This document shows, piece after piece, positions 21,463 to 34,376 of a stretch of 64,000 nt of DNA. Location of the stretch: positions 186,001 to 250,000 of the forward strand of contig JAFLCU010000003.1 of the NCBI GenBank assembly GCA_017303355.1, written 5' to 3'. Below the pieces are notes generated by a model. That model was given only the letters and a program-made list of their open reading frames with translations. It had not been told where the DNA came from and searched no databases. The number at the start of each line of letters is the position of its first letter. Position 1 is the stretch's first letter. This stretch comes from Caulobacterales bacterium. Its GTDB lineage: Bacteria > Pseudomonadota > Alphaproteobacteria > Caulobacterales > Aquidulcibacteraceae. A program made the translations under genes and the position numbers.

Positions 21463-21477
21463 TGGCGGAGAGGGAGT
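21463..21477. repeat. attachment-site direct repeat, left
   Basis: The 15 bases CTGGCGGAGAGGGAG are identical to 34362-34376 in the same orientation, where they form the 3' terminus (CCA plus acceptor strand) of tRNA-Ser. This is the displaced copy of the tRNA end expected at the distal end of a tRNA-integrated element. Confidence 0.85.
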
Positions 21478-21573
21478 GTCCCTGCGGCCCTTGGTTTTCA
21501 AGGCTCGCAGGGCGGCGAGGCCAAAAATACCGTGGTTTATCCCTGGACGTCCGCCTTTGGCCCGAGGCGGACA

Positions 21574-21885
21574 TCAGCCCGAGCAACTGGCCAGATGTTG
21601 CCGCGCGACCTCAACAGCGTTCTTCAGTTCACCGCGTAGGCTTATGTCAGGTGGCCAATAATCTGCGTACTCAAACCACCACGCCAACAATTGCTCATCG
21701 TCCAGAGAAAGCCGGACACCTTCAACCTCTTCAATGAAGTCCTCGTATTGGCGCTTCCCCCGACCGCGTAGCTGATCCTCGATCGCCTCGCGGGGTGTGA
21801 CTTTGAGGACGTGGAAGTTCTGGATCAGTATGCCGCGAACTTCATCCACTAGCCTACGGTCGTGGTAGCTCCCGCTCGCGTTCAT
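21574..21885 (-). CDS. hypothetical protein, last gene of the element
   Basis: 103 residues from an ATG with a GGGAG site 6 bases upstream (the frame extends to a TTG at 21921). The protein is acidic and mostly helical by pattern (DEVRGILIQNFHVLKV, EDFIEEVEGVRLSLDDEQLLAWWFEYADYW). No family is recognised. It lies between the PIN gene and the left attachment site, a cargo position. Confidence 0.5.
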   Translation of the reverse strand: MNASGSYHDRRLVDEVRGILIQNFHVLKVTPREAIEDQLRGRGKRQYEDFIEEVEGVRLSLDDEQLLAWWFEYADYWPPDISLRGELKNAVEVARQHLASCSG

Positions 21886-21964
21886 CCTCGGCTCCCAGCC
21901 CAAGCATGCAGCTCTTTTCAACTCGTGCCAATGACCGCTTCCGGCGAAAAGCAGACCTTGGGTG

Positions 21965-22519
21965 TTAGCTGTCGCCGCCTTCCTTGTCGTCGGCGTATTT
22001 GAACAGCGGCGGCGTGTCGTCAGGCGGAAGGGGCAGTTCGTAGAACATGACCGGCGTGAGCGCCTGCCTTCGGCATTTGTTCGCTAGCCCTTGGTCGCCC
22101 GTGTAAACGCGGTCCACGCCCGCAATCTTGGCGATGGCGGCAATCTGAATATCGAACTTCACCTTTGAGCGGGTGTCGGTTGGTGAGTCCTGCCTGCCTA
22201 CCACGTCGAATTCGTGCCGGATGATCTCGGCGGCTTCGATAGCGGCGCGCCGGTCAAACTCCGCAATGCGGAAATTCTTGTTCTTGCTAAGCAGCGCGAC
22301 AACCGGCGCGCCGGCGGCGCCCGCGCGGACCAAGAATTCCGACAACGCCGGAGTCGGTATCACAATGCGTGTCGTCGTCTGCTCAAGCTGCGCAATCAAA
22401 TACTCGACGCGCTCCGCGAACTTCGTGATTGGCGCGCCCGTCGCCGGGTCTTCCGGCACAATCATGTTGCCGGGCTGTTGCCACGCAATGAGATAGTTGG
22501 CGTCGAGAGCAACAGCCAT
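21965..22519 (-). CDS. PIN-domain protein
   Basis: 184 residues with the PIN nuclease fold signature: an acidic N-terminal strand VALDANYLIAW, a central Glu in PTPALSEFLVRAG, and a C-terminal acidic pair in KFDIQIAAIAKIAGVDRVYTGDQGL. These give the three to four carboxylates that bind metal. PIN proteins are usually RNases, many of them toxins of type II toxin-antitoxin pairs. It starts 5 bases after the stop of the upstream unknown gene (a TTG start would overlap that stop). At about 184 residues it is longer than VapC toxins (~130), so a defence or RNA-processing role is also possible. Confidence 0.78.
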   Translation of the reverse strand: MAVALDANYLIAWQQPGNMIVPEDPATGAPITKFAERVEYLIAQLEQTTTRIVIPTPALSEFLVRAGAAGAPVVALLSKNKNFRIAEFDRRAAIEAAEIIRHEFDVVGRQDSPTDTRSKVKFDIQIAAIAKIAGVDRVYTGDQGLANKCRRQALTPVMFYELPLPPDDTPPLFKYADDKEGGDS

Positions 22520-22524
22520 AGCCG

Positions 22525-32769: not shown

Positions 32770-32787
32770 GACTCCAAAATGGGAGTC
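32770..32787. promoter_or_regulatory. inverted repeat upstream of the MerR/AlpA-like gene
   Basis: GACTCC-AAAATG-GGAGTC lies 31-48 bases before the ATG of the first gene of the head operon, in the 223-base region between it and the end of the integrase gene. Further GACTCC copies occur at about 32850 and, inverted, 34336 beside the attachment site. A binding site for an element regulator or host-phage inducer is the likely reading. No clear -35/-10 pair was assigned. Confidence 0.4.
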
Positions 32788-32962
32788 AACGGCTCGGGAA
32801 CGAAGACTAGAGCAAGTATTCAAGTCACGCGAAAGTTGACCTGGACTCCCTGATTTCCTTGATTTGCGCGGGTTTCCGGGCGCACGGGTTTAGAACTCCG
32901 CGCGGAATGGAGAATTGCCGGTGTGATTTTCAATCCGTTGGGGTGCGGATTTAGTGGGGGCG

Positions 32963-34201
32963 CTATTCGCGCGGCGTCATCGTGCGAAAGATGTTCGCCT
33001 CGCGTTGCAGGTAGCTCGCCCACGCCTGCAACAACTTCCGGCGCGGCTCTAACCGCTGCGCTGCGTTGTAAGCGCCTCTCACGCGGTCTCGCTCATCATG
33101 CGCAAGGCAAAGCTCTACATCATCGGAGGGCCAGCCGCCTTCGTTCGCCCACGTCGAGAAGTTGCGGCGGAAGCCGTGAACGGTGGCGCGCCCGCGATAG
33201 CCAAGCCGGTAGAGCGCGAACAGCATCGAGTTGTTGGACATGACCTTGCGACGGCCCGGCGTGCCGCGTGCGATGGGAAACAGGTATTTCCCGCCGCCCG
33301 TGATCTCGTGAAGCTCTATCAGCGCCTCGCGCGCTTGCTTCGAGAGCGGGACTAGGTGCGGGTCACCCGCCTTCATTCTTTCACCCGGAATGCGCCACAA
33401 CGCTTTCTCGGCGTGTTCGATGTGCTCGAATTCGGACCATTCGGCGTTGATGATCTCGCCAGTGCGGCCAACGGTGAAGATCGTCAGTTGAAGCGCCAAG
33501 CGTGTTTCAGCGTCGCCGCCGTGGTCTTTGTCATAGCGCTTTAGCTTGACCATGAATTCGCCAAGCTCGCGCGGCTTCAACGCGTTGTGATGCACTGGCG
33601 CCGGTGGCGCTTCCATTGCGCCGCGAAGCATCGGTGATGGGTCCACAACGGATTCGTCGGTGGCGCCCGCATAGCGATAGATCGCGCCCACGTATTGCCG
33701 CAGGCGCCGCGCCGTCTCGTGAACGCCGCGCGCCTCTACCTTTCGCAGCGTTTCGAGGATGTCGCCCCGCGTGATGTCGGCGAAGCGCTTAGCGCCAATG
33801 TGCGGGAAAACGTCGGCTTCGAGCCGCGTGAGCACTTGCGGCCCGTAGTCTTCTGACCAGCGGCGCAATTGGGCGGCGTGCCATTCCCGGCCCGCTTGCT
33901 CGAAGGTTGGCTTTTCGCTTGGCTTCGCGGCGTGCTTCCGCGCCTGTTTGGCGTCGCATGGGTCAACGCCGTCGCCGAGCATGGCTTGCGCATCGTTCCG
34001 GCGATCACGCGCCGCTTTGAGCGAGACGGCGGGCCAGCGGCCAAGCGAGAGCGTCTTGCGCTTGCCTGCGTGCTGATAGTCGAACCGCCACAACCGCCCG
34101 CCCGATGGCGTCACCACGACGTAGAGGCTGGCGCCATCCGCGACCTTGTAAGCGCGGAGCTTTGGCTTGAGCGCTTTGAGCTTCGAGTCCGACAGAGCCA
34201 C
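32963..34201 (-). CDS. int: tyrosine-recombinase integrase (P4-like, DUF4102 N-terminus)
   Basis: 412 residues starting at a GTG. The N-terminal arm-binding DUF4102 domain is ALSDSKLKALKPKLRAYKVADGASLYVVV ... LGRWPAVSLKAARDRRNDA; the core-binding domain follows at about 95-190. Catalytic residues are the Arg of FTVGRTGEI, the His-x2-Arg of TVHGFRRNFSTW, the second His of CLAHDERDR, and the Tyr of VRGAYN. It integrates the element into the tRNA-Ser gene whose 3' end lies 162 bases from its start. Intact and full length. Confidence 0.93.
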   Translation of the reverse strand: MALSDSKLKALKPKLRAYKVADGASLYVVVTPSGGRLWRFDYQHAGKRKTLSLGRWPAVSLKAARDRRNDAQAMLGDGVDPCDAKQARKHAAKPSEKPTFEQAGREWHAAQLRRWSEDYGPQVLTRLEADVFPHIGAKRFADITRGDILETLRKVEARGVHETARRLRQYVGAIYRYAGATDESVVDPSPMLRGAMEAPPAPVHHNALKPRELGEFMVKLKRYDKDHGGDAETRLALQLTIFTVGRTGEIINAEWSEFEHIEHAEKALWRIPGERMKAGDPHLVPLSKQAREALIELHEITGGGKYLFPIARGTPGRRKVMSNNSMLFALYRLGYRGRATVHGFRRNFSTWANEGGWPSDDVELCLAHDERDRVRGAYNAAQRLEPRRKLLQAWASYLQREANIFRTMTPRE

Positions 34202-34330
34202 GGTATTTTCCCGGAGGCACGGTATCCTAGGCCGGAAAATACCGTTGATGGGCGTTAACTACCGGCTGCCTTGAACCACAAGGCATAAGCCCAAATAGGT
34301 CAACAGCGAGTTGACTTAATTCGGTATTTT
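34201..34330. promoter_or_regulatory. CGGTATTTT repeats at the integrase start (arm-site-like)
   Basis: An 11-bp perfect inverted repeat, CGGTATTTTCC (34201-34211) and GGAAAATACCG (34234-34244), overlaps the integrase start codon, and a third copy of CGGTATTTT lies at 34322-34330, 32 bases from the attachment core. Three copies of a 9-mer between int and att are typical of integrase arm-type or excisionase sites, and the overlap with the start implies autorepression. Confidence 0.5.
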
Positions 34331-34361
34331 GGACTGGAGTCGTTGACGATTTTGGGGGCGT

Positions 34362-34376
34362 CTGGCGGAGAGGGAG
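34362..34376. repeat. attachment-site direct repeat, right (tRNA-Ser 3' end)
   Basis: CTGGCGGAGAGGGAG, identical to 21463-21477, covers the encoded CCA, the discriminator base and the acceptor strand of tRNA-Ser. The matching bases stop after 15; beyond them the two ends differ. Confidence 0.85.

Follow-up and report, generated by a model that had tools for sequence, protein, structure and literature searches.

The element described here lies in a stretch of 64,000 nucleotides from a Caulobacterales bacterium (assembly GCA_017303355.1, contig JAFLCU010000003.1, positions 186,001 to 250,000), which is referred to as a whole as the window. At window positions 21462-34376, a 12,915 bp element adjoins a tRNA-Ser gene and carries at both ends the exact 15 bp repeat CTGGCGGAGAGGGAG, the right copy of which lies in the tRNA-Ser(cga) gene, at its 3′ end (Table 1). 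It holds 16 intact genes, all on the minus strand, and no core gene is broken. An initial annotation, made from the letters alone, had pointed to an integrase, attachment repeats and an unbroken gene set on one strand, and each of these was borne out by the repeat, its place in the tRNA gene and the domains of the integrase. In family searches, TerS, TerL, portal, protease, capsid and head-tail joining protein were all found within the element. The head genes had been described as a lambda-type portal with a Mu-type protease-capsid fusion, and profile matches from Pfam, PHROG and NCBIfam-style families gave the same names to these genes and to both terminase genes. The same Pfam and PHROG searches detected no tail, lysis, tape-measure or immunity gene in the element, in agreement with the annotation. 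The cargo end, distal to the integrase, consists of a PIN-domain gene and several genes without an assigned function.

Table 1. Positions of the genes and other features of the element and its target tRNA gene in the window.
Feature	Position	Strand	Evidence or remark
tRNA-Ser(cga), integration target	34363..34452	-	ARAGORN, Rfam
att repeat within tRNA-Ser 3′ end	34362..34376	.	exact repeat
Integrase, tyrosine type	32963..34201	-	PF22022, PF13356, PF00589
MerR-like regulator orf199, 199 aa	32224..32823	-	AlphaFold2 pLDDT 85; Foldseek 7xn2 CvkR E 1e-4
Portal, lambda type	30854..32224	-	PF05136 1e-69; TIGR01539 above cut-off
Prohead protease/major capsid fusion, Mu gpT-like	29035..30966	-	NF045541 2e-182 above cut-off; phrog_4523 8e-153
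gpW-like head-tail joining protein (Ad1)	28808..29032	-	NF047331 8e-17 above cut-off; phrog_2545
Capsid cement/decoration protein	28430..28792	-	PF09956 4e-23; phrog_122
CarD-like RNA-polymerase-interaction protein	28113..28430	-	PF02559 2e-6; AlphaFold2 pLDDT 82; Foldseek CarD/TRCF
144 aa, no assigned function	27602..28036	-	recurs in near relatives
RepA/DnaB-like AAA ATPase, replication	26496..27605	-	PF13481 1e-34 (AAA_25), phrog_906
Iteron array, GCGTTGCA-like, likely replication origin	26358..26492	.	
TerS	25920..26393	-	phrog_57 6e-13
TerL, lambda gpA type	24077..25927	-	PF05876 7e-74, PF20454 5e-68
83 aa, zinc-finger/HNH-like, right after TerL	23826..24077	-	weak HNH match phrog_1271 E 4e-5
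156 aa	23365..23835	-	recurs in related elements
273 aa cargo, overlaps PIN gene	22525..23346	-	phrog_19868
PIN-domain protein, cargo	21965..22528	-	PF01850 E 4.5e-6; phrog_21691
115 aa cargo	21574..21921	-	no Pfam/PHROG match
att repeat, tRNA-distal	21462..21476	.	15 bp CTGGCGGAGAGGGAG, exact repeat of 34362-34376

The element is very probably an integrated phage satellite which makes heads of its own and relies on another phage for tails and lysis, with its dependence on a helper and the use of the helper's tail being what we infer from the gene content. Support comes from its relatives. When one genome per species was scanned with a TerL profile, 37 loci were returned, each alphaproteobacterial according to the title of its record, and further relatives were collected from IMG/VR contigs and from genomes belonging to the host's genus and order. 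Most of them share the core in one of two gene orders: rep-TerS-TerL-[variable]-regulator-portal-capsid-gpW-cement-int, and regulator-portal-capsid-gpW-cement-(CarD)-rep-TerS-TerL, the second of which is the one in the window. Twenty-five elements, including that of the window, are bounded by an exact repeat of a tRNA 3′ end (13-52 bp) and have a mean length of 12,475 bp (sd 474, range 11,579-13,343). They adjoin tRNA genes for 13 amino acids in many alphaproteobacterial families, although they are not all independent because some are close kin (L034/L040 and L024/L027). Three more bounded elements, outside these 25, came from class-wide sampling. The tail-less arrangement of 11.6-13.3 kb therefore recurs at tRNA genes, which was the check proposed with the initial annotation.

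The absence of tail genes extends to the whole family. When 28 phage proteins for tails, head completion or lysis were searched against the 2,497 open reading frames (ORFs) of 28 elements, no homologue was found, whereas seven loci from phages or prophages each gave one to nine matches in the same search, three of these loci being prophages of the window's own order. Among 101 non-core ORFs of at least 75 aa from the 24 other bounded elements, the complete Pfam list contained no tail or lysis family, and neither did the 25 PHROG families listed of 48; the matches were to primases, regulators, integrases, HNH proteins and scattered cargo families. Homologues with tails at the same place, which would have made the element a deletion derivative, were thus not seen, and the satellite interpretation of the initial annotation gains support from this. 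With dozens of relatives across the Alphaproteobacteria sharing the tail-less plan, the family looks like an old and separate lineage of phage parasites that would have to borrow their tails, and not like a broken virus.

The family is sparsely distributed. In the order sample, TerL matched at E <= 1e-60 in 14 of 398 genomes, comprising seven with core satellites (at least 48% identity), two with divergent satellites and five with weaker matches, which resemble prophages as far as they were examined. In the class sample, a related portal was found in 7 of 387 genomes. Outside the class but within the phylum, four matches were examined (L144-L147), and these had a phage gene order. Cultured carriers include strains of Celeribacter, Martelella, Rhodovulum, Erythrobacter, Sphingomonas and Roseomonas, among them Celeribacter neptunius DSM 26471, Martelella radicis DSM 28101, Rhodovulum steppense DSM 21153 and Erythrobacter rubeus KMU-140. 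Two relatives have a core gene in two pieces (the integrase in L138, TerL in L140), reflecting either damage or assembly error.

A decaying lambdoid prophage that has lost its tail, lysis and immunity genes would also leave a set of head genes, and these genes are clearly derived from phages. Full prophages with homologous heads are present in the same bacterial order (L082, L084 and L085), and together with the Rhodobacter phage RcKemmy they share homologous TerL, portal and gpW joiner, as well as the protease-capsid fusion and cement protein where these were found. However, they are full phages with tails, and the RcKemmy capsid is 31% identical to that of the window. In the satellites the gpW-like gene follows the capsid, whereas the prophages and most phages examined have it between TerL and portal. 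Its position in the satellites and the placement of TerS and TerL are unlike a simple deletion of prophages such as L082, L084 and L085. Like the satellites, the Roseobacter phages CRP-811, CRP-821 and CRP-406 (L091, L092 and L102) have a small gene behind the capsid gene and, between TerL and portal, one of about 198 aa, a layout unlike that of the other phages examined. Their TerLs rank with the closest phage sequences (about 36%), but these phages are of 30 kb, have tails and carry a very divergent capsid.

The trees and the selection analysis also argue against decay. A single branch of the capsid tree (bootstrap 95, SH-aLRT 99) separated 37 satellites from 12 phages, and 33 core satellites grouped at 100/100, in concordance with an earlier quick tree. 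The final capsid tree leaves out L005-L007, short contigs of undefined kind that are satellites by default label in the TerL tree. In that tree, 44 satellites formed one clade with an SH-aLRT of 100 and a long stem. As the tree is unrooted, the result is compatible with a single origin of the family without proving it. In L080 and L081, TerL belongs to another lineage and the capsid falls on the satellite side, a discord that suggests module exchange. The dN/dS values between elements were 0.05-0.40 for TerL, portal, capsid and cement protein, indicating that the head genes are maintained. The element has no broken core genes, and no relaxed selection and no relatives with the missing genes in place were found. 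Because tail-less relatives recur, satellite capsids stand apart from all phage capsids, dN/dS is low and an empty site exists for the relative L013 (see below), a decayed prophage is considered extremely unlikely.

Intact head genes under purifying selection could also be expected from a head cassette domesticated by the host in the style of a gene transfer agent, and the same genome does contain a gene transfer agent (L079). The distribution is too patchy for this explanation (14 of 398 genomes of the order at the search threshold), and the elements possess their own integrase and origin and occupy many different tRNA sites. In addition, when the flanks of L013, from genome G056, are joined without it, they match the tRNA-Gln locus in each of two sister species as one continuous alignment, of 851 bp (83%) in one and 898 bp (74%) in the other, showing the empty site. 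Taken together, these observations indicate a mobile element, not host inheritance, and leave domestication with only the slightest probability.

Another possibility is that the element is an autonomous tail-less virus, entering cells on its own by means of entry and lysis genes that were not recognised. The genes at 27602-28036, 23365-23835, 22525-23346 and 21574-21921, to which no function is assigned, would be the candidates. However, the non-core ORFs make up 101 clusters out of 118, so there is no universally shared gene of unknown function that could act as an entry device, and the gpW-like joiner, which implies an attached tail, is retained in most members. We therefore regard autonomy as very unlikely.

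Some observations weigh against a helper-dependent satellite. The host genome contains no second gpA-type TerL, no sheath gene and no tape-measure tail gene of PF10145. The two other portals of the host (PF04860) belong to the gene transfer agent and to a second head-only element, so a resident helper prophage, as judged by these genes, was rejected as a candidate. As no helper was found in the host genome, the helper is probably external. The search for an empty site of the window's own element is complicated by the left-flank block at 14476-20592, which in the window is found past the element, to the 3′ side of tRNA-Ser(cga). In two sister species (L112 and L113) this block is conserved beside the same tRNA gene but on its 5′ side, which points to a local rearrangement.

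The gene transfer agent in the host genome, recognised by GTA_TIM and DUF2460, is the sole tail-encoding locus noticed there. It is conceivable, if highly improbable, that the satellite heads dock on its tails, or on those of several unrelated phages, in which case the island would parasitise a domesticated particle system.

The way of life proposed for the element resembles that of the capsid-forming phage-inducible chromosomal islands (cf-PICIs), such as EcCIEDL933, which average 14 kb (PMC10803314). The likeness comprises an integrase, a replication gene, an own TerS, TerL, portal, protease, capsid and joiner, site-specific integration and a small size, together with the absence of tail and lysis genes. 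It could be taken to mean that a conventional cf-PICI of the HK97-type lineage has arrived in the Alphaproteobacteria, since life plan, integrase, replication gene and head set are alike and the size is similar. However, cf-PICI capsids have been analysed as PF05065 (PMC13230959), whereas the capsid of the window belongs to PF25209/NF045541 and is fused to its protease as a Mu-type protein, its TerL is of the gpA type (PF05876), its lambda portal (PF05136) is non-homologous, and it has a cement protein. AlpA (PF05930) is absent from the whole host genome, where a MerR-like protein is found instead; Stl was not searched for by name. Arrival of a conventional cf-PICI is therefore given a slim probability. 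The label "cf-PICI-like" from the initial annotation holds for the mode of life but not for descent. Since its capsid, portal and terminase are of different families and it lacks AlpA, we regard the family as cf-PICI-like, with heads of separate ancestry.

Other tail-less elements with their own heads are the Vibrio cf-PISP TG54 and PISP TG93, which are episomal and carry ParA/RepA, TG54 being without an integrase (PMC13230959). The TG93 capsid is a CapsidPE (PF03864). The window family differs from both in being integrated. Three cf-PICI radiations are reported in PMC11389934, which cites another paper for them, and the literature consulted lists capsid-forming satellites from gammaproteobacterial and Firmicutes groups. 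No published description of the present family was found in the open-access literature searched, which does not include the founding cf-PICI and SatelliteFinder papers.

The family appears to have arisen separately, uses a different head machine and is spread through the Alphaproteobacteria. It could serve as an independent case for asking which features come up repeatedly in satellites that have dropped the tail but kept the head, the candidates being a size of about 12.5 kb, retention of a gpW-like joiner, a rep gene with iterons and integration at tRNA genes. Some small "incomplete prophages" in alphaproteobacterial genomes may be complete satellites.

The RepA-like ATPase with a repeat array had also been noted in the initial annotation, and the array proved to exceed chance: in the region of the replication gene and TerS, nine non-overlapping GCGTTGCA-like 8-mers (at most one mismatch) were present, compared with a maximum of seven in 200 shuffles. 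Among 37 elements examined, there were 16 in which the most repeated 8-mer before TerL exceeded all 100 shuffles, and in several elements grouped copies in one orientation are followed by a spacer and copies in the opposite orientation. The iteron sequences in the region before TerS are wholly different between elements (L013, L020, L025, L034, L041, L060 and others), with a similar layout in several. Such a pattern would be expected of an iteron origin that evolves together with its initiator, and the array may accordingly act as the origin of replication.

Two further proteins are likely transcription regulators on the basis of their predicted folds. One is orf199, with its match to CvkR, which lies directly before the portal gene in many relatives as well. 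The other is encoded at 28113-28430, between the cement and RepA genes, and is confined to near relatives of the element. Its AlphaFold2 model (mean pLDDT 82) matched CarD, CdnL and Mfd in Foldseek (probability 1.00, TM about 0.5, best E about 1e-3). This gene sits at the position of lambda FII and was considered as a connector, which was rejected because the fold matches were to the RNA-polymerase-binding domains of CarD/TRCF.

For the satellite, a cycle can be envisaged in which a co-infecting or resident tailed phage would switch it on, after which it would excise and then replicate. The head operon would be expressed with the MerR-like and CarD-like proteins as likely regulators, and the element's terminase would package the 12.9 kb genome into small heads that the element itself encodes. 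A helper tail could then dock to the gpW-like protein at the portal, and lysis of the cell would be left to the helper phage.

Among the remaining genes, the 83 aa zinc-finger/HNH-like gene adjoining TerL recurs in relatives, its similarity to HNH being weak. Defence cargo was also considered for the element and was not supported, as PADLOC gave no match.

The second head-only element of the host genome, which is unrelated and of HK97 type, is located at a contig end (G000:C31, about 201-211.4 kb; L078:7065-17443). It carries an integrase, a portal of PF04860, an S78 protease, a capsid of PF05065, TerL, HNH, a gp6-like connector and RepC/HTH_36, and no tail gene was seen in it; this is a classical cf-PICI gene set. 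Its relatives are in IMG/VR contigs, the larger of which are 8.7-12.6 kb, and two of them hold a tRNA gene (L151 and L152). Elsewhere in the window, positions 38739-45080 encode a protein of 2113 aa with 37 matched ALTTAQ repeats.
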